From contig CALMVZ010000011.1 in NCBI GenBank assembly GCA_937873155.1, forward strand, positions 248,001 through 312,000: a DNA stretch of 64,000 nt, written 5' to 3'. The notes beneath the pieces were generated by a model. The model was not told the DNA's origin. It searched no databases and saw only the letters and a list, made by a program, of their open reading frames with translations. This document shows, one piece after another, positions 3,234-51,222 of this stretch (the first letter of the stretch is position 1; each line of letters begins with the position of its first letter). The translations under genes and the position numbers were made by a program. The DNA comes from an uncultured Bacteroidota bacterium (lineage in GTDB: Bacteria; Bacteroidota; Bacteroidia; B-17B0; Aurantibacillaceae).

Positions 3234-3298
3234 CAAAGCTATAGCTACTCCGGGGGTTTGTTAATGACAGGAGTCAAAAACCTTTATGACTTTTGTCA
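3234..3298 (-). promoter_or_regulatory. Tandem Crp/Fnr-type sites and -7 element for the 3201 operon
   Basis: Palindromes TGAC-AGGA-GTCA (3265-3276) and TGAC-TTTT-GTCA (3287-3298) have centres exactly 22 bp apart. Read on the minus strand, TAGCTTTG (3241-3234) is a perfect TAnnTTTG -7 element. Its last G is 36.5 bp from the centre of the proximal site. The distal site overlaps the stop codon of mlaD. The predicted start of transcription is near 3229. Confidence 0.8.
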
Positions 3299-5788: not shown

Positions 5789-5853
5789 CAAAGATTTGAT
5801 ATTTCAGCAGAAAAACCCATGAAGCCGGTCAGCACCTTAACTGATACAAGTCA
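5789..5853 (-). promoter_or_regulatory. Tandem Crp/Fnr-type sites and -7 element for mlaEFD
   Basis: Sites TGAA-GCCG-GTCA (5820-5831) and TGAT-ACAA-GTCA (5842-5853) are 22 bp apart. The minus-strand -7 element is AATCTTTG (5796-5789), its last G 36.5 bp from the proximal centre. The predicted transcription start is near 5784, one base before the ATG. Confidence 0.7.
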
Positions 5854-6669: not shown

Positions 6670-6765
6670 CAAAATTAAGTGTAGGGTTACGGGTGACTAA
6701 TGAGTAAGGTCACACTTCGAACTGAGAATTATCATGTCAGTAACAATCTGCATGCGCTTATTTTG
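6670..6765. promoter_or_regulatory. Divergent two-site Crp/Fnr-type promoter (CBS operon / phasin-aarF)
   Basis: Sites TGAG-TAAG-GTCA (6701-6712) and TGAG-AATT-ATCA (6723-6734) are 22 bp apart. The minus-strand -7 element is TAATTTTG (6677-6670), 36.5 bp from the first site. The plus-strand -7 element is TTATTTTG (6758-6765), 36.5 bp from the second. Each site would thus act at -41.5 for one direction and -63.5 for the other. Confidence 0.8.
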
Positions 6766-9257: not shown

Positions 9258-9262
9258 GCTAA

Positions 9263-9613: not shown

Positions 9614-10049
9614 GATTCCTGTTTATAGTTTTTAAATGTGCCGCCCAACTTTTCGCTTTCTCGATTTCTCCTTCCGCCAAAGGGCCTTCTTTGTCCTTTA
9701 CGTAAAACGCTAATGGAGGAGTGATCAACTCTGCGCCTGCCTCGACAAGAGATTTACCAATTCGTTTAGCGGCATTTCCACTAAAAAATATCCGTATCCT
9801 TGTATCAAACGCGGCGGCGCTTATTTTATTTAATTTCAATGTTTTTAAGTTCGATAGAAAGTATCTGATTTTTTCTGTTGCCCGCCAGGCATTGATGGGA
9901 CTACCAACAACAAGTAGGTCAACCCCTGAAAGGTCATCTGCATTAAAATTGTTTACTGATTGGGCCTTGCCTCCAAGAACATCTGCGATCACTTCGGCAA
10001 TTATCTTTGTATTGCCGAAGTTTGAATCAAAAAGCACGAGTGATTTCAT
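9594..10049 (-). CDS. Flavodoxin-family protein
   Basis: 151 aa. The N-terminal beta-strand plus phosphate loop DSNFGNTKIIAEVIADVL fits the FMN-binding T/S-x-(T/F)-G-x-T loop of flavodoxins. The middle strand LLVVGSPINAW matches the 60s loop, and a GPLAEGEIEKAKSWAAHL helix closes the domain. It should be a cytoplasmic FMN electron carrier or oxidoreductase. It overlaps genes on both sides (23 bases with the upstream membrane gene), and its operon begins with a BON protein under a Crp/Fnr-type site. Confidence 0.88.
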   Translation of the reverse strand: MKSLVLFDSNFGNTKIIAEVIADVLGGKAQSVNNFNADDLSGVDLLVVGSPINAWRATEKIRYFLSNLKTLKLNKISAAAFDTRIRIFFSGNAAKRIGKSLVEAGAELITPPLAFYVKDKEGPLAEGEIEKAKSWAAHLKTINRNHAVKKA

Positions 10050-10908: not shown

Positions 10909-11570
10909 CAGATCATATCCTCGGCGCATTCAAGTTGATTTTCAATTGCTGTAACACCAGGCGATGACCATATTGCTTTCTCTGCGTCCAGCTTATCCGA
11001 AAAAGAAGACACGAACCCGCTTAAAGTCACCTTGTGTCCTTCTACTTTTACTTTAATTCTTTTAGCGTCAATTTTAGCATGTCTGTCTAATGCTGAATTG
11101 ATCTTCTCCTGAAGATTCGATGGCGGTGGGGTATCTGTTAGTTTGATATTATTTGTGATCCCGGTTACACCTTTAACATTCCATAGCGTTTTTGCGGCAG
11201 ACTTGCGCTGGAAATCCCAGTTTACTATCCCTTCCAATGTAACATTCCCGTCTTCAACAAGAACTTTTATTTTCTGAGGATCAAGATTACAATGCCATTC
11301 TAATTCATATAGAACTGCCTGCGCGATTTCACTGTCATCTTTTTTGTCGGTATCTTTCAATCTTACTTCAATGTTCTCAGCAATACCACGTACGCCTGCA
11401 ACTCTTTGAGCCACGCGCTCGGCTTTGATCTTTTTAGGATAAGAATCAACGATCCCTGACAAGGTTACTATACCGTTCTTAACGGCGACCCCAATCTCAT
11501 TTGAGTTTAATAATGGAATCCAGCTAAGCTCGTCCATTACATGTTTTTGAATTTCTAAGTCTTTTTTCAT
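10908..11570 (-). CDS. Triple BON-domain protein
   Basis: 220 aa consisting of three BON (OsmY-like) repeats at about residues 5-70, 77-143 and 150-216. Each has the pattern (W/L)...I.V.V..G.VTL.G.V....K..AE......GV..I.N. There is no signal peptide, so it is likely cytoplasmic. Family members bind membranes or phospholipid surfaces. It is the first gene of a five-gene operon with membrane proteins and a flavodoxin. A perfect minus-strand TAGTTTTG and a Crp/Fnr-type site precede it, with a predicted leader of about 15 bases. Confidence 0.9.
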   Translation of the reverse strand: MKKDLEIQKHVMDELSWIPLLNSNEIGVAVKNGIVTLSGIVDSYPKKIKAERVAQRVAGVRGIAENIEVRLKDTDKKDDSEIAQAVLYELEWHCNLDPQKIKVLVEDGNVTLEGIVNWDFQRKSAAKTLWNVKGVTGITNNIKLTDTPPPSNLQEKINSALDRHAKIDAKRIKVKVEGHKVTLSGFVSSFSDKLDAEKAIWSSPGVTAIENQLECAEDMI

Positions 11571-11589
11571 TTTACAGATTTTAATACTT

Positions 11590-11686
11590 CAAAACTATAC
11601 CGACAAACGACGAACTATCATGAGCCTGCTCAACCCGGAATATGACTTTTATCACATAGCCGGATCCGTGAATAATCTTATATTTG
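11590..11686. promoter_or_regulatory. Divergent two-site Crp/Fnr-type promoter (BON operon / chaN-like)
   Basis: Sites TGAG-CCTG-CTCA (11621-11632) and TGAC-TTTT-ATCA (11643-11654) are 22 bp apart. The minus -7 element TAGTTTTG (11597-11590) is 36.5 bp from the first site. The plus -7 element TATATTTG (11679-11686) is 37.5 bp from the second. Start points are predicted near 11585 and 11691. Confidence 0.8.
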
Positions 11687-11691
11687 TTAAT

Positions 11692-12546
11692 ATGAGAAAA
11701 CCACTGTTTATAGGCCTGTACGTATTATGTACTGCCTTTTCAATTAATAAGGAAGCTTATACTTTATATGATTCCAAAGGACAAAAATCAAATTACGATC
11801 AGTTATTAGCTGAGGCTAAAAAAGCAGATATTGTTTTATTTGGCGAATTACACGATAATCCAATATGCCACTGGCTTCAAAAAGAATTGACCCAGGATCT
11901 GTTCACAGATAAAAAAGATAAATTGGTATTAGGCGCTGAAATGTTTGAATCTGATGATCAAATTGCTCTTAACGAATATCTTGCCGGGCAGTTAAGTGAA
12001 AAAACTTTGAAAGAAGAAACAAAGATGTGGTCGAACTACACAACTGATTATAAACCTTTGGTTGATTTTGCAAAGAAAAATAAACTGAAGTTTGTTGCTG
12101 CAAATATTCCAAGACGTTACGCAAATATGGTTTATTTAAGGGGAGAGACTGCTTTAGATAGTATTTCTAAAGATGCTAAACAATGGATAGCGCCATTTCC
12201 AATAAAATATGATGCTGAATTAAAATGTTACAAGAGTATTTATGAGAGTGCCGGTGGCCATGGAGGACAAAACCTGCCAAAGTCACAAGCTTATAAAGAC
12301 GCAACAATGGCTCACTTCATTCTTAAAAACTGGACCAAAGGACAAACTTTTGTTCACTATAACGGTGCGTATCATAGTAACAATCACCAGGGCATTGAAT
12401 GGTATTTAAAACAAGTGAATCCTTCTTTAAAAGTACTGGTTATATCTACTATGGAGCAAAAAGATATATCAACTTTAGAAGAAGAAAATAAAGGCTTAGG
12501 AGATTTTATTATTTGTACTCCTGTGGGTATGACTAAAACGCACTAA
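11692..12546 (+). CDS. ChaN-family (haem-binding uptake) protein
   Basis: 284 aa from ATG 11692. The frame is open from 11620, but that start would lie upstream of the predicted transcription start (about 11691). The N-terminus MRKPLFIGLYVLCTAFS is a signal peptide. The core has FGELHDNPICHWLQ, GAEMFESDDQ, AANIPRRYANMVY and VHYNGAYHSNNHQGIEWYL, matching the ChaN/EreA-like fold. ChaN of Campylobacter binds haem; other members are uncharacterised. It is envelope-located and sits opposite the BON operon. Its stop is one base from the convergent PAS gene. Confidence 0.85.
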   Translation: MRKPLFIGLYVLCTAFSINKEAYTLYDSKGQKSNYDQLLAEAKKADIVLFGELHDNPICHWLQKELTQDLFTDKKDKLVLGAEMFESDDQIALNEYLAGQLSEKTLKEETKMWSNYTTDYKPLVDFAKKNKLKFVAANIPRRYANMVYLRGETALDSISKDAKQWIAPFPIKYDAELKCYKSIYESAGGHGGQNLPKSQAYKDATMAHFILKNWTKGQTFVHYNGAYHSNNHQGIEWYLKQVNPSLKVLVISTMEQKDISTLEEENKGLGDFIICTPVGMTKTH

Positions 12547-12547
12547 A

Positions 12548-13054
12548 TTATTTAAATCTGTTTTGTAATTCTAAGAGGGTTAATTTTGTTATATTAACTT
12601 TTAAGTCCGGGTTAAGAAATAAGTTTTCCAGTTCCTTAATATGTTCTTCCTTTTTGCTTTCCTGTTCTTTTCTTTCCGTTATTTCTTTGGTTAGCGAAAC
12701 ATACTGAATGTTTTTTGAGGTACCGATAGGTAAAATAATCGCATCAATCCAATAACATCTACCGTTCTTGGATTTATTTTTTATCTCACCAAACCAAATA
12801 TTTCCAGAACGAACCGTCGCCCATAAATTAGAGAAAAACTCTTTTGCGTGATGTTCAGAATTAACAATTCTATGATTCTGCCCAAGCAGCTCTGACGAGG
12901 AAAATCCTGATATCTCACAGAATTTTTTATTTACATATAAGATCCTCCCCCTTTGATCAGTAACCGAAGCAAGCATTCCCAGATCAATAGCCTTTTTATA
13001 CGTAATAAGAAGATCATCGAAATACACATTCTTAAACTCGTTCAAATAGTCCAT
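12548..13054 (-). CDS. Stand-alone PAS-domain protein
   Basis: 168 aa from ATG 13054. An upstream in-frame ATG at 13075 precedes the predicted start point and is disfavoured. It has one PAS fold (about residues 15-135: ITYKKAIDLGMLASVTDQRGRILYVNKKFCEISGFSSSELLGQ split by the usual loops; then WFGEIKNKSKNGRCYWIDAIILPI) with a PAC motif and a charged helix ending KEQESKKEEHIKEL. No kinase or output domain, so it may be a partner or decoy sensor. A perfect TACCTTTG lies at 13071-13064, giving a leader of about 5 bases. Confidence 0.85.
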   Translation of the reverse strand: MDYLNEFKNVYFDDLLITYKKAIDLGMLASVTDQRGRILYVNKKFCEISGFSSSELLGQNHRIVNSEHHAKEFFSNLWATVRSGNIWFGEIKNKSKNGRCYWIDAIILPIGTSKNIQYVSLTKEITERKEQESKKEEHIKELENLFLNPDLKVNITKLTLLELQNRFK

Positions 13055-13063
13055 AGTACAGAA

Positions 13064-13181
13064 CAAAGGTATCACTCAAGCTCAATCGTTTACAGGATAT
13101 TCCATAGCACTTCGCATGAACTAAAATATGTTAAGATATGAGAATTATCATATATTCTTTATGGTTATGAAAGTACTTTTG
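13064..13181. promoter_or_regulatory. Crp/Fnr-type site and -7 elements between the PAS and Crp/Fnr genes
   Basis: TGAG-AATT-ATCA (13139-13150) lies inside a perfect 6+6 inverted repeat (13136-13153). The plus -7 element TACTTTTG (13174-13181) is 36.5 bp downstream and predicts a start near 13186, 3 bases before the regulator's ATG. The opposite -7 element TACCTTTG (13071-13064) is 80.5 bp away, which is 36.5 plus two steps of 22. Only degenerate half-sites occupy the two intervening positions. Confidence 0.65.
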
Positions 13182-13188
13182 GCGCCTT

Positions 13189-13881
13189 ATGAATGGTCAT
13201 GGTGATTGCCAAACGTGCAGATCTTTTTTAAAAAGTGCTTTCTGTAGCGAGAAAGCTTCTACAATAGCTAATGTCTTATCGGGACATCTTTTATCTATCA
13301 GTTTTAAAAAGGGTCAGGATATCTATAAAGAGGGAACTCTTGGCAAGGGGGTTTTTTGCATTCAAAAGGGTAAAATAAAAATTTACAAGATCTGTGAAGG
13401 CCGGAACCTGGTTACAGATCTGGCCACTGATGGTGATCTTATCGGTTATGCAAATATTATGAATGAAGGTGTTTGTATCAATTCTGCCAAATGCATTGAA
13501 GATTCACAGATCTGCTTTATTCCAGAAAAAGCGTTCAAGATCTTATTGGAAAGTAAATCGGCTCTGATAGCCGATTTATTAAAACGAAGCTGCAGGGAAA
13601 CGGCACAATTATCAACTATTATTACCGCTTTGAAATGTATGAACACAGAGGGACGGATAGCCTGTGCGCTAACTACCATAGAAAAGAAATTTGGTGTGGA
13701 TAAAGCCGGTTGCCTGGATGTTAACCTGACCAGGAAAGATATATCGGAAATATCAGGAACAACAACAGAATCCGCGATCCGAATACTAAATAGTTTCAAA
13801 AAGGATCAATCCATTGCTTTTCAAAATAACCGGATCAAGATCATAGATAAGAATAAGCTTAAATTGTATTTATCCAATTAA
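13189..13881 (+). CDS. Crp/Fnr-family transcription regulator with N-terminal cysteines
   Basis: 230 aa. A cyclic-nucleotide-binding-like beta roll (about residues 30-140) is followed by a dimer helix and a C-terminal winged helix-turn-helix with recognition helix TTTESAIRIL. The helix keeps the Glu and Arg that read TGA half-sites in CRP and FNR. Cys7, Cys10 and Cys19 at the N-terminus, with further cysteines in the beta roll, resemble FNR-type iron-sulfur ligands in kind but not in exact spacing. Redox sensing is therefore possible, not shown. The gene lies behind a Crp/Fnr-type site in class II position, so auto- or cross-activation is likely. Confidence 0.88.
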   Translation: MNGHGDCQTCRSFLKSAFCSEKASTIANVLSGHLLSISFKKGQDIYKEGTLGKGVFCIQKGKIKIYKICEGRNLVTDLATDGDLIGYANIMNEGVCINSAKCIEDSQICFIPEKAFKILLESKSALIADLLKRSCRETAQLSTIITALKCMNTEGRIACALTTIEKKFGVDKAGCLDVNLTRKDISEISGTTTESAIRILNSFKKDQSIAFQNNRIKIIDKNKLKLYLSN

Positions 13882-13898
13882 ATCTCTTCTTTAGCTCC

Positions 13899-13963
13899 TG
13901 ACCAGTATCATTCTAATATTTGACTGCCGTCATTCAGGCCCGCTTTTTTCTATTGCATCTTTG
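13899..13963 (+). promoter_or_regulatory. Tandem Crp/Fnr-type sites for the DUF4136 lipoprotein gene
   Basis: TGAC-CAGT-ATCA (13899-13910) and TGAC-TGCC-GTCA (13921-13932) are 22 bp apart. CATCTTTG (13956-13963) is a near-consensus -7 element with its G 36.5 bp from the second centre. Predicted start near 13968. Confidence 0.75.
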
Positions 13964-13976
13964 CTTAAAACAAATT

Positions 13977-14633
13977 ATGAAAATAGAAAAGTATACTATT
14001 CTTATTTTATTGGCATCATCAATTGTACTTAGCTGCGGGGTTTATAACGATATTTCCGTCGATTGTGATTCAATGAAAGATCTTTCACAATATAACACTT
14101 TTGCGTGGTTACCAGATGTTAGAGATACTGTGGATTCTCCGTATAACAATGAGGTCATACGCAATAATTTAAAAAATTACTTTGGGCGAAACTTAGCAGA
14201 AAGAGGATTTAGTGTATGTTTAGATACTCCCGATGTACTCTTAAGAATTGTAATTGTTAATAATCCGAAAGTTCTTACTATCATTCATCCGCCGAGGCCT
14301 TTCAGATACTATTATGCTCCTTATTATTATAAGAGTGATTATTATTCTCCTTATCCCCAGGATTACTACTACAGCTATTCCGAGTATTGTACTCCTCATG
14401 GATACTGCACGGAAAAAATTAATTATGTTGAAGGATCAATTACTTTACAGGTGATTGAACGGGTACAAAGCAAGATCATATGGTCCTGCACCGCTAAAGG
14501 AGATATTTATGATCCGGTATACATTAACAGAAGCATTCATCCTGCAGTAATTAATATCATGAAGAAATTCCCCGCTAAACCAATACATCAGAAGAACGAT
14601 AAAAAAACTGAAAGTTCGGTTGCTTTAAACTAA
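13977..14633 (+). CDS. DUF4136-like lipoprotein
   Basis: 218 aa from ATG 13977. An in-frame TTG upstream at 13920 overlaps the regulatory site and precedes the predicted promoter. Signal peptide II: MKIEKYTILILLASSIVLSC with the lipobox cysteine at residue 20. The mature part has YNTFAWLPD near the start, a tyrosine-rich insertion (about residues 100-130, many YY pairs), then VEGSITLQVIERVQSKIIWSCTAKGDI, which fits DUF4136. Probably anchored in the outer or inner membrane facing the periplasm. The tyrosine-rich tract is unusual. Role unknown. Confidence 0.82.
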   Translation: MKIEKYTILILLASSIVLSCGVYNDISVDCDSMKDLSQYNTFAWLPDVRDTVDSPYNNEVIRNNLKNYFGRNLAERGFSVCLDTPDVLLRIVIVNNPKVLTIIHPPRPFRYYYAPYYYKSDYYSPYPQDYYYSYSEYCTPHGYCTEKINYVEGSITLQVIERVQSKIIWSCTAKGDIYDPVYINRSIHPAVINIMKKFPAKPIHQKNDKKTESSVALN

Positions 14634-14637
14634 ATTC

Positions 14638-15696
14638 TTAGTTTTTCATATTCACAAGTTTGTCAATATTTGTAACTGCAATAGTGCTGCCACTGACCTC
14701 AATTAATTTTTCATCTTTAAAATCACTCAAGGTACGGATCACCGTTTCGGTAGCGGTACCAACTATCTGCGCAAGGTCTTCTCTTGAAATGTTTATGCTA
14801 AATTTCTTTTCGTCCTCTTTTTTATATTTGTTGTAAAGTGTAACCAACGCTTCAGCACAACGTTTCCTGACAGAATTGTAAGCAAGTTTCATCAATTGTT
14901 CTTCGCGCTCCAGGATGTTATTGGACAAAATACTGATGAACTTTCGCGATACTTCCGGGCTTTTATACACCAACGAATAAAAATCTTCTTTTGGGATCAT
15001 ACTAATTTCAGAGTCTTCCAGCGTCATTGCGCTATCTGTGTATTTTCCATCTTCCAATAAAGCCAGATACCCGAAAAAATCCCCCTCATTGTATAAACTA
15101 TTGATCAATTCTTTTCCGAGATCATTTGTTTTAAAGGTTTTTACTTTTCCTTTTTTTACAAAGTAAACAGCTCGCGGCGTGCTTCCTTCATTATAGATCA
15201 CTTGTTTCTTTTTATAAGAGCTGGTGTCGTATTTTTCAGAAAGTTTTTTAAGCGCTTCAATACTTTTTACTTCTTTAATAAAACTATCAAAGCCTTCAGG
15301 CCCTTTTTCAAACTCCTTTTTTGCCAGATCCGATTTTTTAAGACGGCTCTCGATCGCGTTCAAAAGTTCAATATCATCGAATGGCTTTGTTACATAATCA
15401 TCCGCTCCCATTTCCATTCCTTTGCGAAAATCACTTCTCTCAGCTTTTGCCGATAAGAAGATAAATGGAATATTGGCGGTTTCAGGTTTTTTAGATAATA
15501 AATGTAAAACACCGTATCCGTCCAAGACCGGCATCATAATATCACAGATAATAAGATCCGGTTTTTCTTTTTGTGCCTTTTCCACGCCTATCTTTCCATT
15601 TTCAGCGGTAAATACTTTATAATTTGAAAGCTCAAGGATCTCGGACGTATTCTCGCGCATTTCCTTATTATCTTCGATCAATAAAATTGTTTTCAT
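14638..15696 (-). CDS. Response regulator receiver fused to a Crp/Fnr regulator
   Basis: 352 aa. The receiver domain (1-120) has acidic residues at 8-9, phospho-acceptor Asp52 in CDIMMPVLDG, Ser82 and Lys104 in VTKPF. A linker (about 121-155) leads to a cNMP-binding beta roll (about 155-260) and a Crp-type winged helix (about 285-345) with ISREDLAQIVGTATETVIRTL. So phosphorylation, rather than or in addition to a small ligand, may control a TGA-reading DNA-binding module. The start is 4 bases from the upstream histidine kinase stop, a clear cognate pair. It converges with the lipoprotein gene with a 4-base gap. It is a strong candidate for the regulator that binds the sites in this window. 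Confidence 0.92.
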   Translation of the reverse strand: MKTILLIEDNKEMRENTSEILELSNYKVFTAENGKIGVEKAQKEKPDLIICDIMMPVLDGYGVLHLLSKKPETANIPFIFLSAKAERSDFRKGMEMGADDYVTKPFDDIELLNAIESRLKKSDLAKKEFEKGPEGFDSFIKEVKSIEALKKLSEKYDTSSYKKKQVIYNEGSTPRAVYFVKKGKVKTFKTNDLGKELINSLYNEGDFFGYLALLEDGKYTDSAMTLEDSEISMIPKEDFYSLVYKSPEVSRKFISILSNNILEREEQLMKLAYNSVRKRCAEALVTLYNKYKKEDEKKFSINISREDLAQIVGTATETVIRTLSDFKDEKLIEVSGSTIAVTNIDKLVNMKN

Positions 15697-15699
15697 GTT

Positions 15700-16929
15700 C
15701 TATTTCATAAAAGTTATTATAAATGTAGTGCCTTCTTCTAATTTACTTACACATTCTATAGTTCCGTCCATCATCTCAACATATTTTGCAACAATGTTAA
15801 GGCCAAGCCCGGTTCCCTGGATATTAGTTGCATTCTCTCCCCGGAAAAAACGCTCAAATAAATGTTTTTGATCTTCCTCTGAAATCCCGATGCCGTTGTC
15901 CTTGACCTTTAAAACAATTGTTTTTTCGTTGATCTCTGATGTGATCTCAATTGGTTTATTCTCAGGTGAAAATTTAATGGCATTTGAAACAAGGTTAAAT
16001 ACTACATGCCTGATGATTTTTTTATCAAGATTAACATTTACTTCATCACCAACGTGCAAATAATCGAGACTTTGTCCTGCCCTGCAAATTCCGCGCATCT
16101 CACCGATTAATGCAATAATAAACGATTTAATATCGAAATTCTCTCGCGAAACAGTTATACCTCCTTCTTCCAGTTTACTTATTGAAAGCATATCATTAAG
16201 TATATCCGTTAGATTAGTGATCGACTGCTTGATCCGCGCCATATGCTTGCTCTGTTTTTCCTTATCTCCTTGTTCGCCATATTTTGCTACAAGTGATAAT
16301 GATGACAAAACAGTGGCAAGAGGAGTTCTGAATTCATGCGAAGCCATTGAAACAAATCTGGATTTTAATTCACTCAACTCCCGCTCCTTCTCTAAAGCCT
16401 TATTCAATTCTTCTTTCGTCTTTTCCAATTCTTCAATAGCCTCACTCATGATCATAGTACGGTTCTCAACCTGTTTTTCAAGCTCAACCGAATAGTTCTT
16501 TAACCTTTCTTCAGCTTGTTTACGGAGCGTGATGTCTATTACAAATCCAATAACGAATTTTTCGTTATCGAAGGTATAAGGACTCAGGCTAATTTCTACA
16601 GGGAATTCGGAACCGTCCTTCCGTTTTCCATTCAAATCAAATCCCGCTCCCATTGATCTGGCATGTGGATTTTCAGAAAAATTATCCCTGTGCTGCTCAT
16701 GTCTTTTAACATAACGTGTAGGCACTAATACTTCTACTCTTTTTCCGAGCAACTCTCCTTCTGAATATCCAAACATTCGTTCGGCGGCAGGATTAACTTT
16801 TACCAATTCGCCTTTTGCGTTAGTAACAACAATGCCTTCAGTTGCGTACTTGAACAAAGCCTCCAGACCTTCTCTTCCTTCCATTAATTTATTAAGTTTT
16901 GTATGCTCTAAAGTACTCACTTCTATCAT
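15700..16929 (-). CDS. PAS-domain sensor histidine kinase
   Basis: 409 aa from ATG 16929. The frame opens three codons earlier at a TTG, but the predicted start of transcription (about 16931) supports ATG 16929. PAS domain at about 20-140 (ALFKYATEGIVVTN... MFGYSEGELLGK; PAC end FVIGFVIDITLRKQ), then a coiled coil to about 190. HisKA follows with phospho-acceptor His198 in SHEFRTPL, then HATPase_c with N box HVVFNLVSNAIKFSPE, DNGIGI and GTGLGLNIV. No membrane segment, so it is a cytosolic sensor; FixL/DosS-like oxygen or redox sensing is possible, but no haem motif can be asserted. It forms an operon with the REC-Crp fusion gene. Confidence 0.93.
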   Translation of the reverse strand: MIEVSTLEHTKLNKLMEGREGLEALFKYATEGIVVTNAKGELVKVNPAAERMFGYSEGELLGKRVEVLVPTRYVKRHEQHRDNFSENPHARSMGAGFDLNGKRKDGSEFPVEISLSPYTFDNEKFVIGFVIDITLRKQAEERLKNYSVELEKQVENRTMIMSEAIEELEKTKEELNKALEKERELSELKSRFVSMASHEFRTPLATVLSSLSLVAKYGEQGDKEKQSKHMARIKQSITNLTDILNDMLSISKLEEGGITVSRENFDIKSFIIALIGEMRGICRAGQSLDYLHVGDEVNVNLDKKIIRHVVFNLVSNAIKFSPENKPIEITSEINEKTIVLKVKDNGIGISEEDQKHLFERFFRGENATNIQGTGLGLNIVAKYVEMMDGTIECVSKLEEGTTFIITFMK

Positions 16930-16935
16930 TTTAAG

Positions 16936-17000
16936 CAAAATAACGGCAAATAAAAGCTGTTATGGCTGATGTGAGTCAGTCAAGTATATGATTTTTGTCA
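16936..17000 (-). promoter_or_regulatory. Tandem Crp/Fnr-type sites for the kinase / REC-Crp operon
   Basis: TGAT-GTGA-GTCA (16967-16978) and TGAT-TTTT-GTCA (16989-17000) are 22 bp apart. The minus -7 element TTATTTTG (16943-16936) has its G 36.5 bp from the proximal centre. Because the operon encodes a Crp-type DNA-binding module, this could be a positive feedback loop. Confidence 0.75.
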
Positions 17001-17012
17001 TGTCTCTGCTTT

Positions 17013-17828
17013 CTACCCGTGAATTGCCATTACAGGAATCCTTGACTGGAAAGCTATTGTTTTTGTATTGGTTTCGTTAAAGAACTTATATAAAACAGAA
17101 TGAGATTGACTTACAATGGTTATTAGATCCGCATTTTTATCTTTCGCATATTCAGCAATACCATCAGTAAAAGATTTTGCTTCTACTACCTCTAATTTCA
17201 TTTTTTTTGCTTTTGCCGAATTATCATTAAAGAAAAAGTTTGCCGGAGTTTTTACATGAACGGTAGAAATTCCGGTTTTAAAATACAAGCTAAAATCCTT
17301 TACCTTTTTAAGTATTGGATAAGTCGCGGTTTGTAAATTATCAATTGCCAAGATCGCTTTTACAAGTTTATGGTCTTTATATTTTTGAGGGACAATAATC
17401 ACAGGACAATTTACTTTGCCAGCAATACTTGTACCATGAGAACCATAAATAAATTTTGAGATCCGTGACTTTGTTTCTAAACCAAGAACTATATACTGCA
17501 CTTTTCGGCGACGGATCAAGTCCTCAATTTGCATTTGGAACGGTTCACTCGATGTCAGAATTTCTATATGCAGCCTTGGATACTTTTCTTTAAGAATGTC
17601 TCTATAATTCTCTAATTTAGTTTCACTGGTCTCCTTAATAGCTTTATACGAAATAAAGTACATACCGGAATTTGTGTGTACTACCGGCGCTTCGAAAATA
17701 TGGAACAACATTAAGGATGCATTTCCCTGTTCTGCAAGCATTGCTGCATATTCAACAGCATTTCCCGATGACTTGGTATAATCAATACCAACCAGGATCG
17801 TTTTGTGAGATTTTTTTGATTTTTTCAT
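17013..17828 (-). CDS. Tandem universal stress protein (UspA family)
   Basis: 271 aa with two Usp folds. The first (about 1-145) opens with KTILVGIDYTKSSGNAVEYAAMLA and closes with a G-2x-G-9x-G(S/T)-like ATP-binding run, YGSHGTSIAGKVNCPVIIVPQ. The second (about 150-271) is more degenerate and ends NTKTIAFQSRIPVMAIHG. Cytoplasmic stress and energy-starvation proteins of this type are strongly induced by low oxygen in many bacteria. One base separates it from the upstream doxX-like gene, whose promoter it shares. Confidence 0.92.
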   Translation of the reverse strand: MKKSKKSHKTILVGIDYTKSSGNAVEYAAMLAEQGNASLMLFHIFEAPVVHTNSGMYFISYKAIKETSETKLENYRDILKEKYPRLHIEILTSSEPFQMQIEDLIRRRKVQYIVLGLETKSRISKFIYGSHGTSIAGKVNCPVIIVPQKYKDHKLVKAILAIDNLQTATYPILKKVKDFSLYFKTGISTVHVKTPANFFFNDNSAKAKKMKLEVVEAKSFTDGIAEYAKDKNADLITIVSQSHSVLYKFFNETNTKTIAFQSRIPVMAIHG

Positions 17829-17829
17829 A

Positions 17830-18252
17830 TTACTTAGTTAATAGGTTTGCGATCAGATGATCAATACTAAAATATCCCCAGGCGGCCGGGAACATCAGTA
17901 AAGCAGAAACAAGAACCAGTCTTGGATACACATGTTTCATATCCCACATTGGCTGTATTACTGAAAAAGCGACAGCAACTAATACAAGATCCAAGCCAAT
18001 CAAACTGAGAATTATCGTTTTAAAGGCGCCAAGGATTAACAATATGCCGCCGAAAAATTCAATAGTTGATGTATAAGCGGCCATCACCTTAACAAAGCCT
18101 TGGGGAACATTTTGTTTTTGAGCTTCGAAATTAAATGCTTCAACTACCCCGCTTATTTTAAGCTTAAATAGTTTGTCGTAACCCTGGAACAGGAACAAGA
18201 TGCCTGTAAAAACCCGGACCAATAGTTCTAATATATAATATCTGTCTTCCAT
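17830..18252 (-). CDS. DoxX-family membrane protein
   Basis: 140 aa with four hydrophobic segments. The DoxX pattern is visible in LVRVFTGILFLFQGYDKLFK, FGGILLILGAFKTIILSLIGLDL and the C-terminal PAAWGYFSIDHL. DoxX proteins are four-helix inner-membrane proteins linked in different organisms to quinol oxidation, thiosulfate metabolism or redox control; the activity here is unknown. It is the first gene of a two-gene operon with the universal stress protein. A perfect TAGATTTG -7 element and a Crp/Fnr-type site upstream give a leader of about 12 bases. Confidence 0.88.
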   Translation of the reverse strand: MEDRYYILELLVRVFTGILFLFQGYDKLFKLKISGVVEAFNFEAQKQNVPQGFVKVMAAYTSTIEFFGGILLILGAFKTIILSLIGLDLVLVAVAFSVIQPMWDMKHVYPRLVLVSALLMFPAAWGYFSIDHLIANLLTK

Positions 18253-18268
18253 GCTGTTTATTTTAATA

Positions 18269-18364
18269 CAAATCTATGGCAAGGGTTTTTCTTGTCACCT
18301 AATCAATGTCAGTACCTCGTATGACTTACATCATTATTTTTCCGGGATAATGGTCTCAACTTTG
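18269..18364. promoter_or_regulatory. Divergent two-site Crp/Fnr-type promoter (doxX-usp / 18384 operon)
   Basis: TAAT-CAAT-GTCA (18300-18311; one half-site mismatch) and TGAC-TTAC-ATCA (18322-18333) are 22 bp apart. Minus -7 TAGATTTG (18276-18269) and plus -7 CAACTTTG (18357-18364) each lie exactly 36.5 bp from their proximal site. The two -7 elements end 95 bp apart. Confidence 0.8.
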
Positions 18365-18383
18365 TACCATACAAAACCACAAT

Positions 18384-18779
18384 ATGAAAACAGAAACAAT
18401 TAAAACTGAAAAAGTTTACACTCAACACGAAGAGAATAAAGAATGGTTAAGTAAACTGGCGTTCTATAAAGATGAAGTTAAAGTAATGGAGCATCGCATA
18501 GAAGAGATCGCTTCCAAAAATACTTCAAAAGATGTTTTAGGCAAAGTAGAACAGTTTCAGAATCGTCTTATCATTAATAAGAACACTATGGATATTTTAA
18601 AACATAAGATCAATCTTAGTAATGATGCTATTCATAGCGATATAAACAAGAACGAAACCGCGGCAGATCATCGTTCTATAAAAGATCATTCTGAATTACG
18701 TGACGAGATGAAACTATTTGAACTGCATTTTATCTCGTTTAAATCTGAATTGAATTTGTTCTTAGTTAAATGGATGTAA
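18384..18779 (+). CDS. Hypothetical helical protein, 131 aa
   Basis: Not a family I recognise. Almost entirely helical and charged (EENKEWLSKLAFYKDEVKVMEHRIEEIA then NKNTMDILKHKINLSND), with two predicted coiled-coil stretches around residues 17-60 and 95-130. No signal peptide. It is the first gene of a three-gene group that begins about 15 bases after a predicted promoter carrying a perfect Crp/Fnr-type site, opposite the doxX-usp operon. A structural or stress-protective role is possible but unsupported. Confidence 0.75.
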   Translation: MKTETIKTEKVYTQHEENKEWLSKLAFYKDEVKVMEHRIEEIASKNTSKDVLGKVEQFQNRLIINKNTMDILKHKINLSNDAIHSDINKNETAADHRSIKDHSELRDEMKLFELHFISFKSELNLFLVKWM

Positions 18780-18807
18780 ATAATTTTAAACTCAAATAAA
18801 TAATAAA

Positions 18808-19152
18808 ATGGAAACCACAATCAACACACGCACTGGTACAATGAGAAGTACCGCTGAAAAAACTAACGTTGTCTCTTCAAATGTTAGCGCTTACGATCGC
18901 TGGATTGAAACACTGAAATTCAGTCATTTTGGGATCATTAGTATGACTATTTTGGTTGGCAGCATCCTTGGAGGAATTGCATCTATGTATGTTTTTCAAA
19001 ACGATGCGCCGTTCTGGCAATTTGTAGTTGGACTTTATTGTACAATGGCCAACTTAGTAGCTTCAATTGCACAAGCACCAACAAAATGGGTGGTAAATTT
19101 ATTTTTCTTGTCTGCCACTGTAAGTACACTGTTGATCATAATTAATTTATAA
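18808..19152 (+). CDS. Small two-to-three-helix membrane protein
   Basis: 114 aa. A hydrophilic N-terminus of about 30 residues rich in Ser/Thr precedes hydrophobic segments at about 42-64 (FGIISMTILVGSILGGIASMYVF), 71-89 and 95-113. No recognised family. The last base of its stop is the first base of the next gene's ATG, so the two are translationally coupled. It lies 28 bases downstream of the helical-protein gene. Confidence 0.72.
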   Translation: METTINTRTGTMRSTAEKTNVVSSNVSAYDRWIETLKFSHFGIISMTILVGSILGGIASMYVFQNDAPFWQFVVGLYCTMANLVASIAQAPTKWVVNLFFLSATVSTLLIIINL

Positions 19153-19529
19153 TGAGCCCTCGTCAACAATTGTGCTATGCCTTGGGTGAGTTGGCCTACG
19201 CTGTAGCGAAAATAGACGGTGAGGTTGTGAAGGAGGAACGGGAGAAATTGCATAAGATCATTTCTGAAGATCTTAGTCCCGTTGATTACAATTTCGAAAT
19301 TTCTAAGATCATTTTTGAAATGGTGGACAAGCAGAATAAAGATGCTGAAACCGTATATAACGATGCGGTAAAAACCATTCAATGTTACAGTGATAGTTTT
19401 GATCGTGATATGAGATTAGTATTCTTAAGAACACTTGAGAAAATAGAAAGAGCTTCGCCTCCGATTGTAAGCGCTCAAAAAGAATTGCTACAGCGATTCA
19501 GGCATGAGATAAAACAATTAAGCAATTGA
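19152..19529 (+). CDS. TerB-like helical protein
   Basis: 125 aa. The N-terminal pattern ALGELAYAVAKIDGEVVKEEREKLHKII resembles the TerB/DjlA helical fold (A-x-x-D-G-x-(V/I)-x-x-x-E), and the rest is helical. TerB-like proteins occur in stress and tellurite-resistance clusters and may bind metal through the acidic loop. It is the third gene of the 18384 group and overlaps the membrane gene by one base. It converges directly on the VOC gene with no spacer. Confidence 0.65.
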   Translation: MSPRQQLCYALGELAYAVAKIDGEVVKEEREKLHKIISEDLSPVDYNFEISKIIFEMVDKQNKDAETVYNDAVKTIQCYSDSFDRDMRLVFLRTLEKIERASPPIVSAQKELLQRFRHEIKQLSN

Positions 19530-19910
19530 TTATCTGGCAAAAGCAATGACGTGGCCATCCGGGTCACTACAATAAGCAACAGTATCGCCCCATGAGCGCA
19601 TTTCCGCCTGGCTGATCTCCTTTGCTCCGGCGCTTAATGCAATCTGAAGGGCTTCTTGTGGGCCGTCTACTATTAAATATAATTCACAACGTGGAATCCC
19701 ATTGCCACTTTCAGGATGCTTGGTTTTATTCCCTAATATTTTTGCAATTCCGCTTTCAGGCATTAAGCCCAACAAGAAATTGTCAGAAATTTGGAATTCT
19801 GTCATGCCCGGAACATTAAGCAAAGGTTTTTTACGGAGAATTGTTTTATAGAACTGTGTGCTGCGCTTTTGATCTGCAACATAAAGAATGATCATAGGAA
19901 ATTTTGCCAT
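19530..19910 (-). CDS. VOC/glyoxalase-superfamily protein
   Basis: 126 aa from ATG 19910. Two beta-alpha-beta-beta-beta units: ...MIILYVADQKRSTQFYKTILRKKP and RCELYLIVDGPQEALQIALSAGAKEISQ, ending DTVAYCSDPDGHVIAFAR, the usual VOC terminus. Small proteins of this kind are metal-dependent lyases, dioxygenases or resistance proteins; the substrate cannot be told. No Crp/Fnr-type site is visible upstream. Confidence 0.88.
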   Translation of the reverse strand: MAKFPMIILYVADQKRSTQFYKTILRKKPLLNVPGMTEFQISDNFLLGLMPESGIAKILGNKTKHPESGNGIPRCELYLIVDGPQEALQIALSAGAKEISQAEMRSWGDTVAYCSDPDGHVIAFAR

Positions 19911-19954
19911 GCTAAATAAATAGGGCGTAAATATACCAAACAATTACTAATTAA

Positions 19955-20275
19955 ATGAGAATTGCATTTATAATACTTTTGATAGCCCATGCCGGAATCC
20001 ATTTGATCGGCTTCTCTAAAGAATTTTGGTTACTCAGAACTCAGACTTTAAATGCTTTATTTAAATCTGCCGGGATAGTTTGGCTATTTTCAACAATTCT
20101 TTGGTTAACTACATCCATTCTGTTTGGCTTTAAATATGAATATTGGTGGGTTTTAGGAAGTATTTCTATCCTATCGTCGCAAGCCATCATATTTACCGCA
20201 TGGTCAGAAACCAAATACGGGACTATCCCTAACATTATTATATTATTGGTTCTGTTTATGGGGGTTATAAAATAA
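19955..20275 (+). CDS. Hypothetical membrane protein, 106 aa
   Basis: Four hydrophobic segments filling nearly the whole length (starts MRIAFIILLIAHAGIHLIGF; later STILWLTTSILFGF and IIILLVLFMG). Short loops and no charged motif that names a family. The divergent VOC gene starts 45 bases away. No regulatory site noticed. Confidence 0.65.
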   Translation: MRIAFIILLIAHAGIHLIGFSKEFWLLRTQTLNALFKSAGIVWLFSTILWLTTSILFGFKYEYWWVLGSISILSSQAIIFTAWSETKYGTIPNIIILLVLFMGVIK

Positions 20276-21827: not shown

Positions 21828-21923
21828 CAAAGCTATTCACTGTTTGATATATCATAACTGACAGAAATCATAATTCGTATTGATTACCATCACCAAAACA
21901 GGATTGTCCTCCACTTAAATTTG
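21828..21923. promoter_or_regulatory. Divergent two-site Crp/Fnr-type promoter (CPBP-TauE / ccoI)
   Basis: TGAC-AGAA-ATCA (21859-21870) and TGAT-TACC-ATCA (21881-21892) are 22 bp apart. Minus -7 TAGCTTTG (21835-21828) and plus -7 TAAATTTG (21916-21923) are both perfect TAnnTTTG and both 36.5 bp from the proximal site. Predicted starts fall about one base from each ATG. Confidence 0.85.
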
Positions 21924-24358: not shown

Positions 24359-24632
24359 TCTCAAATGCGGAGGATGCGCTGCAACTATCAAAAAAAACTT
24401 ACTCCTTATTAAGGGTGTTGAATCCCTGGAGGTGATCCCGGAAAATGAAGAGGTAAAGATCAACCATAATGATGCTCTTTCTTTAAAACTTGCCAAAGAC
24501 GAATTGGACCGACTTGGTTATCCTGAACAAGGAACAACTGAAGGCTTAGAAAAATTAAGTAAGAATGTGAAATCGTATCTAAGCTGTGCCATCGGAAAAC
24601 TCACAAAGCCCGAGGATGACAAAGATCAGTAA
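24333..24632 (+). CDS. HMA-domain copper chaperone-like protein
   Basis: 99 aa. HMA fold with the metal-binding CGGC at about residues 12-15 (LKCGGCAATIKKNLL), followed by GVESLEV and DELDRLGYPEQG, the usual last strand. A 30-residue C-terminal extension (LEKLSKNVKSYLSCAIGKLTKPEDDKDQ, split here by nothing recognisable) is not part of the fold. The canonical Met before the first Cys is replaced by Lys in LKCGGC. Overlaps ccoI by 26 bases, so it is co-translated with the pump and probably passes copper to it. Confidence 0.85.
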   Translation: METIVKVDNLKCGGCAATIKKNLLLIKGVESLEVIPENEEVKINHNDALSLKLAKDELDRLGYPEQGTTEGLEKLSKNVKSYLSCAIGKLTKPEDDKDQ

Positions 24633-24682
24633 TTCGGTTGACGACGCTCAGTAATTCAATAGCCTCACTCCCGGTAAATTTG
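24617..24682 (+). promoter_or_regulatory. Tandem Crp/Fnr-type sites for the cbb3 oxidase operon
   Basis: TGAC-AAAG-ATCA (24617-24628, inside the end of the HMA gene) and TGAC-GACG-CTCA (24639-24650) are 22 bp apart. The -7 element TAAATTTG (24675-24682) is perfect, its G 37.5 bp from the second centre. A second promoter thus serves ccoS and the oxidase genes separately from ccoI. Confidence 0.82.
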
Positions 24683-39147: not shown

Positions 39148-39852
39148 ATGAATCCATTCGATTTCCCTTTCGAAAAATTTAATTTTGGCAGCGATTCTGT
39201 TTTGGAAGGATTATCGACGGAAGATAATCATATCCTGAATCGGAACATGGTTACTCATAGATACAAAAAAGGGGAGATATTATTTCGGGAGGGAAGTTAT
39301 CCGACAGGGATCTATTTTGTAAAAAAAGGCAAAGTAAAAAAATACACAACCGACAAAGACGGTCGCGAACAAATTATTTATATCTGCCAGGCCGGTGAAT
39401 TATTAGGTTACCATGCGCTAATTAGTCAGGAATATTTTCGAGATTCAGCCGCTGCATTAGAAGATTCTGCAATTTCTTTTATCCCAAAAGAAGATTTTCT
39501 TTTTGCATTAAATTTTTCGTCAACTTTATCTAACCGCTTATTAAAATGTTTAAGTCATGAATTTGGTGTGTTAGCGCACACAATATCTATTTTTGCAAAC
39601 AAAACAGTAAGGGAACGCCTAGCACTTAGCTTATTAATATTAAGAGATAAATACAAAAAAGACAGTGCTAAAGGTCAACCGGTAGAATTGAATTTAACTC
39701 GGGAGGATCTTGCAAAATTAGTAGGAACGGCCCGTGAAACTTTAGTAAGGCTATTGCAGGAATTTAAACAAGATGGTCTTATCGAAATTAATGGTCGGAA
39801 GATCATTCTTATTAAGGCCAAAGAGCTTTCAAAAATAGCGAATTTATACTAA
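39148..39852 (+). CDS. Crp/Fnr-family transcription regulator
   Basis: 234 aa. cNMP-binding beta roll (about 25-140: RYKKGEILFREGSYPTGIYFVKKGKVKKYT, then GREQIIYICQAGELLGYHAL), dimer helix, and a winged helix with LTREDLAKLVGTARETLVRLLQEF. The recognition helix has Arg-Glu-Thr-x-x-Arg as in CRP, unlike the Thr-Glu of the other two Crp-type proteins in the window. No cysteine cluster at the N-terminus. The beta roll is close in pattern to that of the REC-Crp fusion (IYNEGSTPRAVYFVKKGKVKTF), so the two look like paralogues. Confidence 0.93.
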   Translation: MNPFDFPFEKFNFGSDSVLEGLSTEDNHILNRNMVTHRYKKGEILFREGSYPTGIYFVKKGKVKKYTTDKDGREQIIYICQAGELLGYHALISQEYFRDSAAALEDSAISFIPKEDFLFALNFSSTLSNRLLKCLSHEFGVLAHTISIFANKTVRERLALSLLILRDKYKKDSAKGQPVELNLTREDLAKLVGTARETLVRLLQEFKQDGLIEINGRKIILIKAKELSKIANLY

Positions 39853-40102: not shown

Positions 40103-40198
40103 CAAAACTAATAATAGAACACCAGGCCTCAACTGATCATTCTCATTGCTTCTACTGATAAGCATCATTTAAATTCATTGCGCTTATATCGATCTTTA
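40103..40198. promoter_or_regulatory. Divergent two-site Crp/Fnr-type promoter (DUF2892-like / paaABCD)
   Basis: TGAT-CATT-CTCA (40134-40145) and TGAT-AAGC-ATCA (40156-40167) are 22 bp apart. Minus -7 TAGTTTTG (40110-40103) is perfect. Plus -7 GATCTTTA (40191-40198) is degenerate but exactly in register. The -7 ends are 95 bp apart, as at the other divergent modules. Confidence 0.72.
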
Positions 40199-43570: not shown

Positions 43571-43636
43571 TGACGCAGCTCATGCTGATCCCCTGACCAA
43601 CGTCATTTAAACTTGTTTTATTGATTCTGAACTTTG
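43571..43636 (+). promoter_or_regulatory. Tandem Crp/Fnr-type sites for the hmgA-hppD operon
   Basis: TGAC-GCAG-CTCA (43571-43582) and TGAC-CAAC-GTCA (43594-43605) are 23 bp apart, the only pair not at 22. GAACTTTG (43629-43636) has its G 36.5 bp from the second centre. Predicted start near 43641. Confidence 0.75.
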
Positions 43637-46513: not shown

Positions 46514-47878
46514 ATGTACGTTCAACAATTATATACCAATTGTCTCGCTCAGGCGGCTTATTATGTAGAATCTAACGGAGAAGTATTGATCATAGACCCT
46601 TTACGAGACCCGGGTCCTTATCTTGATCTGGCGAAAAAGAGAAAGGCAAAGATCCGCTATGTTTTCGAAACTCATTTTCATGCAGATTTTGTTTCCGGAC
46701 ATCTGGAATTATCAAGGAAAACCGGAGCCACGATCATATTTGGGCCTAACGCCAACCCTAAGTACAAAGCCTTTATTGCAAAAGATCTTGAACCATTTGA
46801 ATTAGGAAAAACAAAATTCCAGGTCCTTCACACACCGGGACACACAATTGAATCTTCCTGCGTTTTGCTTTTTAATGAAGAAGGCAAGCCCCATTGCATC
46901 TTCACGGGCGATACCTTGTTTGCCGGTGATGTCGGCAGGCCTGATCTGCTAAGCGGGAATTTAAATAAAGAAGAGCTCGCCGGAATGCTATTCGAATCCT
47001 TGAAAAAAATTAAAGCTTTACCTGATGATTTGCTTGTTTACCCAGGGCATGGCGCCGGATCTGCTTGCGGAAAGAATATTGGTAAGGAAACTGTAACAAC
47101 TATTGGCATTCAGAAAAGAAGAAATTATGCACTGGGCAATTTATCTAAAAATGAATTTATTAAAACCGTTACAACAGGATTACCAAATCCGCCGGCCTAC
47201 TTTTTTAAGGATGCAAGCATTAACATTAGCGGTTACGATAGTTACGACGCCATAATGTCGAAAGAACTTATAGCGTTACATCTTGACCCTTTTAAAACAG
47301 AGGTTAAAGACGGGGCGATTATTCTTGACACAAGAAATGCTGCTGATTTTGCACGAGGATTTATCCCGGGTTCAATTAATGTGGGTTTAAATGGGGATTT
47401 TGCTGTTTGGGCAGGAACGATGATCGCTTTTGGAACTCCGCTTGTAATTGTAGCTGAAAAAGGGAAAGAAAGAGAAAGCATTGTACGATTAGCGAGAATT
47501 GGGTTCGATACTATAAAAGGTTATCTGAATGGAGGGTTTGAAATATGGAGTGCTAATGGTGAGCCTGTTGATTTTGTTAAGGAAATTGAAATGAAGGATT
47601 TAAAACAGCTTCATACTAAGGATACGATCATATTGGATGTAAGGAGAAATGACGAACATGAAAAAGGAGCAATTCCAAATGCCCTGCATGTTCCTCTCGA
47701 TTTTCTTCACAATCATATGAGCGAGTTGAATAAAGATAAAAACTATGTGGTTTATTGTGCCGGAGGTTATCGATCAATGATAGCAGTAAGTATACTTAAA
47801 AAATATGGTATCAAACACATTCAAAATCTTAAAAACGGCATTAATGCGTATTCAAAACCAAAATTGGCCAAATCCTGA
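46514..47878 (+). CDS. Persulfide dioxygenase (ETHE1-like) fused to two rhodanese domains
   Basis: 454 aa. MBL domain (1-250) with THFHADFVSGH, HTPGHTIES and TGDTLFAGDVGRPDL, the ETHE1-type glutathione persulfide dioxygenase signatures. The first rhodanese (about 262-350) lacks the catalytic Cys (VAEKGKERE in its place). The second (about 365-450) is active-looking with CAGGYRS. It should oxidise persulfide sulfur to sulfite in the cytoplasm. Fusions like this are known in Bacteroidota. The stop codon lies within a Crp/Fnr-type site for the next gene. Confidence 0.93.
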   Translation: MYVQQLYTNCLAQAAYYVESNGEVLIIDPLRDPGPYLDLAKKRKAKIRYVFETHFHADFVSGHLELSRKTGATIIFGPNANPKYKAFIAKDLEPFELGKTKFQVLHTPGHTIESSCVLLFNEEGKPHCIFTGDTLFAGDVGRPDLLSGNLNKEELAGMLFESLKKIKALPDDLLVYPGHGAGSACGKNIGKETVTTIGIQKRRNYALGNLSKNEFIKTVTTGLPNPPAYFFKDASINISGYDSYDAIMSKELIALHLDPFKTEVKDGAIILDTRNAADFARGFIPGSINVGLNGDFAVWAGTMIAFGTPLVIVAEKGKERESIVRLARIGFDTIKGYLNGGFEIWSANGEPVDFVKEIEMKDLKQLHTKDTIILDVRRNDEHEKGAIPNALHVPLDFLHNHMSELNKDKNYVVYCAGGYRSMIAVSILKKYGIKHIQNLKNGINAYSKPKLAKS

Positions 47879-47940
47879 TTACAATCAGTTTCAGATTTGA
47901 CAGACCTCATAATTTTTGCGTTGTGTAAAGCATACTTTTG
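47876..47940 (+). promoter_or_regulatory. Tandem Crp/Fnr-type sites for hsp20
   Basis: TGAT-TACA-ATCA (47876-47887, starting at the stop of the preceding gene) and TGAC-AGAC-CTCA (47898-47909) are 22 bp apart. A perfect TACTTTTG (47933-47940) is 36.5 bp from the second centre. Predicted start near 47945, leader about 31 bases. Confidence 0.82.
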
Positions 47941-51157: not shown

Positions 51158-51222
51158 CAAAGATTGAGGTAAACAACTATATCTGATATGAATCCGGTCA
51201 GACCTGGTAATGATTTAAGTCA
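51158..51222 (-). promoter_or_regulatory. Tandem Crp/Fnr-type sites for the usp gene at 50247
   Basis: TGAA-TCCG-GTCA (51189-51200) and TGAT-TTAA-GTCA (51211-51222) are 22 bp apart. The minus -7 element AATCTTTG (51165-51158) is 36.5 bp from the proximal centre. This is the last such module in the window. Confidence 0.75.

Follow-up and report, generated by a model that had tools for sequence, protein, structure and literature searches.

The window analysed here is a 64,000-nucleotide stretch of DNA from an uncultured Bacteroidota bacterium (contig CALMVZ010000011.1, positions 248,001 to 312,000; source assembly of 4.85 Mb in 39 contigs). Its minus strand encodes a response regulator in which a receiver (REC) is joined to a Crp/Fnr-type protein, next to a PAS histidine kinase, and the operon is preceded by two tandem sites of a promoter code that recurs across the window.

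14638..15696, minus strand: REC-cNMP-HTH_Crp response regulator (the fusion), 352 amino acids, assigned by Pfam, alignment and AlphaFold
15700..16929, minus strand: PAS-HisKA-HATPase kinase, assigned by Pfam; open reading frame (ORF) listed from TTG 16938
16936..16943, minus strand: -7 box TTATTTTG (5/6), 23 base pairs (bp) beyond the near site, reading towards the kinase
16967..17000, minus strand: tandem pair with a 22-bp period, promoter of the kinase-regulator operon
17013..17828, minus strand: universal stress protein (Usp), assigned by Pfam, in a run with DoxX 17830-18252(-)

An earlier note, made from the letters of the window, had described a receiver-Crp/Fnr fusion with its own PAS kinase. 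This was borne out by the adjacency of the two ORFs and by their Pfam domains, with Response_reg (E 5e-29, residues 4-116), cNMP_binding (E 5.5e-21, residues 160-243) and HTH_Crp_2 (E 9e-16, residues 279-349) in the regulator 14638-15696(-), and PAS_9 (4.6e-18), HisKA (8e-14) and HATPase_c (6e-29) in the kinase ORF 15700-16938(-). In the AlphaFold model of the regulator (mean predicted local distance difference test score 86.7), the receiver is followed by a short linker helix (residues 133-143), the cNMP fold, a long C-helix (residues 262-291) and terminal winged-helix elements; model and Pfam matches together give the cNMP fold and HTH_Crp of the Crp/Fnr superfamily. The receiver has the phospho-acceptor Asp, acidic pocket and Lys of a response regulator, D9, D52 and K104 being invariant in 29/29 aligned fusions, and the phospho-acceptor His of the kinase is invariant in 29/29 aligned kinases. 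The recognition helix of the window fusion is GTATETVIRTLSDFK. The Fnr cysteine motif (N-terminal cluster plus central Cys) was found in none of the 29 fusion Crp halves, read from residue 141 onward, and by eye the window fusion carries no Arg at the place that we take to be that of the Arg-Ser of the cAMP cassette. No solved chain spanning both regulator halves was present among the best 60 of 165 matches, and the best 25 NCBIfam models for the fusion and for the kinase were all below cut-off. Comparisons by fold matched the kinase core to histidine kinases and the regulator to receivers; each list was taken up by a single domain, so they say little about the PAS and Crp halves. The kinase lies directly upstream of the fusion in 39/39 related loci with an intact fusion (L080, with a broken fusion frame, was dropped) and in 66 of 76 named loci. 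In the window the Usp and DoxX genes follow further upstream on the same strand. Existing annotations call the plasmid copies of the fusion a response regulator or a transcriptional regulator.

Before the kinase, TGATGTGAGTCA (16967-16978) and TGATTTTTGTCA (16989-17000) stand 22 bp apart. In the code to which they belong, two TGA-N6-TCA sites have a spacing of 22 bp and the Bacteroidota -7 box TAnnTTTG follows 23 bp beyond the near one; the tandem sites of the earlier note were recovered in a sharper form than claimed, with both distances fixed. The window contains 44 exact TGA-N6-TCA sites; 100 shuffles gave 22.4 +/- 5.0 and never more than 39. Among spacings of up to 60 bp between the exact sites of the window, 22 bp occurred 11 times, 23, 43 and 54 bp once each, and no other was seen. 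The whole genome holds 14 exact 22-bp pairs, 11 of them in the window (64 kb of the 4.85 Mb). Passages of a start-site study of Flavobacterium psychrophilum place the TAnnTTTG box at -12 to -5 (PMC9723704), which would put the near site at about -41.5 and the far site at about -63.5; the same -7 box is cited from B. fragilis in a passage of a B. thetaiotaomicron paper (PMC7366714). The start predicted from the -7 box falls about 2 nucleotides before the kinase ATG 16929, so the messenger would be nearly leaderless. This geometry makes ATG 16929 a likelier start than TTG 16938.

The same arrangement was found at related loci. A first set comprised the window and 40 chosen loci (L041-L080), that is, 41 sequences with 99 pairs; a -7-like box was defined as at least 5/6 of TAnnTTTG, and the reversed site pattern served as control. 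The box was present at offset 23 on 110 of 198 sides, against a mean of 2.07 (maximum 7) at 69 other offsets. It lay on one side of 72 pairs, on both sides of 19 and on neither side of 8; the symmetry of the pair allows it to serve divergent genes on both sides. For 47 promoters flanked by a gene on just one side, the exact box was counted 23 times at offset 23 and at most once at any other offset within 70 bp. Among 80 named loci, which overlap the first set (window and L041-L080), 58 held a pair, with 106 pairs at 22 bp, 7 at 23 bp and no more than 3 at each remaining spacing between 12 and 60; the -7 box stood at offset 23 on 114 of 212 sides versus 2.43 elsewhere. The named loci, 883 kb in all, had no match to the reversed pattern. 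The possibility that the main code has a 23-bp period was considered, and that spacing proved minor (134/395 class genomes versus 267/395 for 22 bp). Three consecutive TGA-N6-TCA sites with the 22-bp period were observed at G348:C4:65227-65282, G348:C6:103282-103337 and G377:C5:324937-324992.

A feedback loop on the kinase-regulator operon had also been proposed. The pair does stand in class II position before the window operon; an exact pair within 350 bp upstream of the kinase start was present in 17 of the 40 related loci and in 23 of 63 named ones (overlapping sets), and autoregulation as a general property is therefore not supported.

Co-occurrence of fusion and pairs was examined in an order set of 87 genomes (one family) and in a class set of 379 of 395 genomes, from which 15 order genomes and G394 were left out. 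In G394 (family f57), 135 pairs and 68 reversed-pattern matches were counted, probably a tandem repeat. The fusion was scored as present at a best E of 1e-60 or lower, which counts as present some partial copies (G001, G002, G036, G072, G080 and others) and the distant paralogue that alone is found in G031, and as absent a fragment at a contig end in G066. In the order, 65 of the 70 genomes with the fusion and 7 of the 17 without it had a pair (72/87 overall); in the class the figures were 168/186 and 86/193 (Fisher 2e-22). Across 28 families of mixed status, fusion-bearing genomes had the higher mean pair count in 23 and the lower one in 5 (Wilcoxon 4.5e-4), a within-family comparison that is only a partial correction for relatedness. 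The association between fusion and promoter code, which the earlier note had named as the check to make, is thus strong, also within families. The reversed pattern turned up once each in 6/87 order genomes and, in a count by eye, in 35/395 class genomes; chance may therefore explain a genome's only pair.

Seventeen genomes, chosen for few Fnr-like matches in an earlier search, were surveyed with HTH_Crp_2; the fusion was the sole match in G011, G027, G074, G077 and G081 (93-100% complete), which have 4, 6, 4, 3 and 3 pairs. In G040 (73% complete, 6 pairs) both matches were fusions. A second, more distant fusion paralogue (43-51% identity) is present together with the first in many of the pair-richest order genomes; it was seen in G003, G004, G026, G032, G040, G048, G051, G060, G079 and G083. 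G031, with the distant paralogue only, has no pairs. Among the exceptions to the co-occurrence were G018 (630 contigs), with 10 pairs and no fusion found, and G136, G204 and G456 of family f5, with 2-3 pairs and neither fusion nor Fnr-type reader found. The nearest named records were metagenome-assembled genomes of Bacteroidota; isolates such as Flavisolibacter ginsengisoli DSM 18119 were more distant.

The other pairs of the window are given below, divergent arrangements without a strand.

3265..3298, minus strand: tandem pair, -7 box TAGCTTTG, before 2824-3201(-), which has no Pfam match
5820..5853, minus strand: tandem pair, -7 box AATCTTTG, before MlaE/ABC/MlaD genes 5789-3296(-)
6701..6734: tandem pair, -7 box on both sides, for a CBS protein 6237-6659(-) and phasin-like/ABC1 genes 6779-8870(+)
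11621..11654, minus strand: tandem pair, -7 box TAGTTTTG, before a BON-domain gene 10908-11570(-)
13899..13932, plus strand: tandem pair, -7 box CATCTTTG, before a lipoprotein-like ORF 13920-14633(+)
18300..18333: pair with one mismatch, -7 box on both sides, for DoxX-Usp (-) and 18384-18779(+)
21859..21892: tandem pair, full -7 box on both sides, for a P-type ATPase 21929-24358(+) and ORFs 21855-20291 (-)
24617..24650, plus strand: tandem pair before cbb3 oxidase ccoNO 24880-26997(+), with TAAATTTG 24 bp on, not 23
40134..40167: tandem pair before PaaA/PaaC-like 40178(+)
43571..43605, plus strand: 23-bp pair, -7 box GAACTTTG, before an HgmA-like gene 43656(+)
47876..47909, plus strand: tandem pair, -7 box TACTTTTG, before Hsp20 47952(+)
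51189..51222, minus strand: tandem pair, -7 box AATCTTTG, before a double-Usp gene 50247-51140(-)

Two pairs touch listed starts: 11621..11654 overlaps that of a ChaN-like ORF at 11620(+), and the TTG of the lipoprotein-like ORF falls within 13899..13932. At 40134..40167 the -7 box matches 4/6 on the PaaA/PaaC side and is full on the opposite side. In the window, a pair with a -7 box of at least 5/6 at 23 bp is found in front of the Mla genes, the CBS protein and the divergent phasin-like/ABC1 run, the BON gene and the lipoprotein-like ORF, and likewise in front of the kinase-regulator operon and the genes for the P-type ATPase, Hsp20 and Usp. The genes that the earlier note had named together with the switch (Usp, Hsp20, CBS, cbb3 oxidase) each lie behind a pair, and related loci repeat the DoxX-Usp, Hsp20, ATPase, cbb3 and Mla targets. 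As in a FixK regulon, Fnr-type sites precede cbb3 (24617) and a CcoI-type ATPase (21859), here and in several related loci.

The fusion is also carried by plasmids. On pHsw1 of Hymenobacter swuensis (L218, NZ_CP007144.1), typed as a mobilizable plasmid, positions 5471-20096 hold the kinase-fusion operon, two group III truncated haemoglobins, a P-type ATPase, ccoS, ccoN, ccoG, FixH and Usp, perhaps a portable microoxic respiration module; 23-bp pairs stand before the ATPase and before ccoN. Near three plasmid copies of the fusion four pairs were found, one at 22 bp (Runella, with no fitting -7 box) and three at 23 bp (two Hymenobacter plasmids).

The window encodes two further Crp/Fnr-type proteins.

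13139..13150, plus strand: single exact site, -7 box TACTTTTG, before the stand-alone Fnr
13189..13881, plus strand: stand-alone Fnr-type regulator with the CQTCRSFLKSAFC motif, helix GTTTESAIR
39148..39852, plus strand: third Crp-type regulator, crp3, helix GTARETLVR, no N-terminal cysteine motif; possible extra reader

The sequence 22 bp upstream of the single site, TGAACTAAAATA, has 2 mismatches. The site and its properly placed -7 box suggest a cascade in which the fusion may stand above the Fnr gene at 13189; they may also reflect Fnr self-regulation. Relatives of this Fnr (50-55% identity) were found in 4 of the other 86 order genomes. As relatives of at least 50% identity thus occur in 5/87 genomes, source included, it was rejected as the general reader of the pairs.

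Pairs are also found in genomes that lack the fusion. Ten such genomes were chosen, and 20 stretches from nine of them were read. The -7 box stood at offset 23 on 25 of 54 sides (mean 0.71 elsewhere), and pairs preceded cbb3, ATPase and Usp genes among others. Six of the ten (G088, G124, G154, G188, G227, G377) have a pair immediately next to a gene for a stand-alone Crp/Fnr-type protein, and seven (G088, G154, G188, G202, G227, G348, G377; six of these aligned) encode a Crp-type protein that has C-x2-C-x8-C and, near residue 112, a central Cys. The motif was looser in G124 and absent from the proteins read from G416 and G018; the NCBIfam Fnr model aligned to one cysteine-motif protein from its first cysteine, below cut-off. 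The recognition helix of the six aligned proteins, GTATE[ST].IR.LSE, is nearly identical to that of the fusions, mostly GTATE[ST].IRTLSDFK.

A profile was built from the alignment of these Fnr proteins (A1; six genomes, chosen for having pairs). Fusion-less genomes scoring 1e-70 or better had pairs in 54 of 72 cases, those between 1e-40 and 1e-70 in 14 of 42, and those at 1e-40 or worse in 18 of 79; minus the six training genomes the contrast was 48/66 versus 18/79 (Fisher 2e-9). The cysteine motif itself was read in the chosen genomes only, not in all 72 high scorers. Eight of the 79 have neither reader and yet at least two pairs. Stand-alone cysteine-motif Fnr proteins seem to read the same code in fusion-less Bacteroidota, and an exclusive link between fusion and code was rejected because pairs with the same -7 geometry occur without the fusion. 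The proposal that the regulator is joined to a Crp/Fnr code keeps the strong co-occurrence and the pair-bearing genomes with fusions as their only matches; what falls is any idea of a code private to the fusion. A tree built from 57 Crp parts places all 29 fusions in a single clade (98/89), a result compatible with one fusion event; among the stand-alone proteins its branching is partly weak.

For the signal we examined the kinase PAS domain, whose best match among solved structures is the haem PAS of FixL (E 5e-17), with DosP among the next. The alignment to FixL is gapless over query residues 10-128 and places His80, numbered from TTG 16938, in the column of what we take to be the FixL haem histidine. 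His80, Pro91, Arg94 and Met96 are invariant in 41/41 kinases. A FixL-like PAS and the target genes are the grounds on which we regard O2 or redox as probably the signal.

Taken together, these data make it likely, to judge from sequence, that kinase and fusion form a two-protein low-oxygen/stress switch acting through tandem-site class II promoters. The PAS kinase, probably responding to O2 or redox, would phosphorylate Asp52 of its operon partner, as adjacency and the conserved residues suggest, and phosphorylation would favour dimerisation of the Fnr-type half. Two dimers may then occupy the TGA-N6-TCA sites at about -63.5 and -41.5, which lie two turns of the helix apart. From the observed class II geometry, the near dimer would activate sigma-A-type RNA polymerase at the TAnnTTTG promoter. 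Predicted targets are cbb3 oxidase, the copper-type ATPase, Usp, DoxX, Hsp20 and Mla genes. In this genome the stand-alone Fnr would be a further target, and certain genomes would place the switch under its own control. Two proteins would thus do the job of FixL, FixJ and FixK.

Several observations weigh against this interpretation. Of the fusion-bearing genomes, 18 of 186 in the class and 5 of 70 in the order have no exact 22-bp pair, a situation that the earlier note would have taken as refuting; it concerns a minority, the majority keeping their pairs. Conversely, 86 of the 193 class genomes without the fusion have pairs; some of the pairs may thus be read by the window's own Fnr or by crp3. 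The p-values are too small because the genomes are related, and HTH_Crp_2, being a single model, would miss regulators with another helix type in the census. The window kinase has Phe at the position of FixL Arg220, 31 of the 41 kinases have Met, Leu or Ile there, and the residues at the positions of FixL Arg206 and Ile215 differ as well. With His80 kept and Arg220 lost, a haem PAS is plausible, with a distal chemistry unlike that of FixL.

The pairs could be read mainly by stand-alone Fnr or Crp proteins, with the fusion a passenger of the gene neighbourhood. The -7 geometry of pairs in fusion-less genomes, their position beside Crp/Fnr genes, the presence of Fnr and crp3 in the window itself and the three of 15 order genomes scored (G020, G052, G053) whose Fnr profile match is 1e-77 or better all fit this idea. 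We consider it unlikely, as relatives of the window Fnr are so rare in an order where 72/87 genomes have pairs, five pair-bearing genomes have no other HTH_Crp_2 match, and the fusion shares its helix almost exactly with the Fnr proteins, the helix of crp3 being different. Much harder to set aside, at only slightly under an even chance, is a model where the fusion acts on these promoters and the kinase responds to a signal other than O2 (redox, NO, general stress, or a flavin or metabolite). The missing Arg220 agrees with it, the PAS sub-motif H...R......P..R.MG is not unique to haem proteins, and Usp, Hsp20, DoxX, BON and Mla targets suit a broad stress response. On the other hand, FixL as the best solved PAS relative and DosP as one of the next are both haem O2 sensors, cbb3 and the ATPase are recurrent targets, and the H. 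swuensis operon adjoins two truncated haemoglobins, ccoS, ccoN and ccoG.

Repression from the near site, which abuts the -35/-33 region, appears improbable, since the exact class II spacing, a -7 box free of sites and a second site upstream fit activation; in passages of the F. psychrophilum study, which do not name the regulator, cbb3 oxidase is up under O2 limitation (PMC9723704). That the spacing is a by-product of repeats or composition has next to no probability. G394 and the control matches in the class genomes speak for it; for the whole set it was rejected by the shuffles, the rarity of the reversed pattern in order genomes and its absence from the named loci, and the fixed -7 offset.

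Since some fusion-less members of the class seem to read the same sites with an iron-sulphur Fnr, the two-protein switch may have arisen by a change of sensor. An old tandem-site Fnr regulon would have been kept and its reader changed from an O2-sensing iron-sulphur Fnr to a phospho-switched REC-Fnr with a FixL-like kinase, through a single fusion event followed by wide spread, including on plasmids, and sometimes by coexistence with the old reader. We put this forward tentatively, its chances being a little below one half. Phospho-switched and cysteine-motif (presumably iron-sulphur) readers would then amount to a class-wide natural experiment, the sensor rewired and the promoters unchanged. 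The switch offers a concrete and testable model for the control of high-affinity respiration and stress genes in aerobic Bacteroidota, and its promoter grammar is rigid enough for regulon prediction from sequence. Many Bacteroidota appear to carry such a kinase and Fnr-type response regulator for low-oxygen/stress genes. Among the titles and abstract openings of open-licence papers, a literature search returned no REC-Crp regulator and no such tandem code in Bacteroidota.

Among known systems, class II activation by CRP and FNR of E. coli also uses a near site at about -41.5, and sites for CRP or FNR in tandem can work jointly there; here the second site is at -63.5, at a fixed 22 bp, and the arrangement recurs at many promoters per genome. 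DosST-DosR of mycobacteria, which the earlier note had brought in, is a two-component system for hypoxia and stress control with Usp and Hsp20 targets. DosR is NarL-type and DosST carries its haem in GAF domains; the NarL-type output is not present in the fusion, whose output is Crp-type by Pfam. The stand-alone Fnr proteins of other Bacteroidota (L108, L110, L116, L117) share a nearly identical helix, the tandem code, the -7 spacing and the cbb3/ATPase targets; they differ in being one-component proteins with C-x2-C-x8-C and a central Cys, a motif that suggests an iron-sulphur cluster, and in having no receiver. The likeness to the FixL-FixJ-FixK system of rhizobia, also drawn in the earlier note, holds for the PAS kinase (a FixL-type PAS including the haem-His position), the response regulator, the Fnr-type code and the targets, among them cbb3 oxidase and a copper-type ATPase. 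In the present system the functions of FixJ and FixK are apparently fused, FixL Arg220 is absent, and the sites are 22-bp tandems with a Bacteroidota -7 box. The fusion system would function like FixLJ-FixK, and is neither a FixJ nor an iron-sulphur Fnr.

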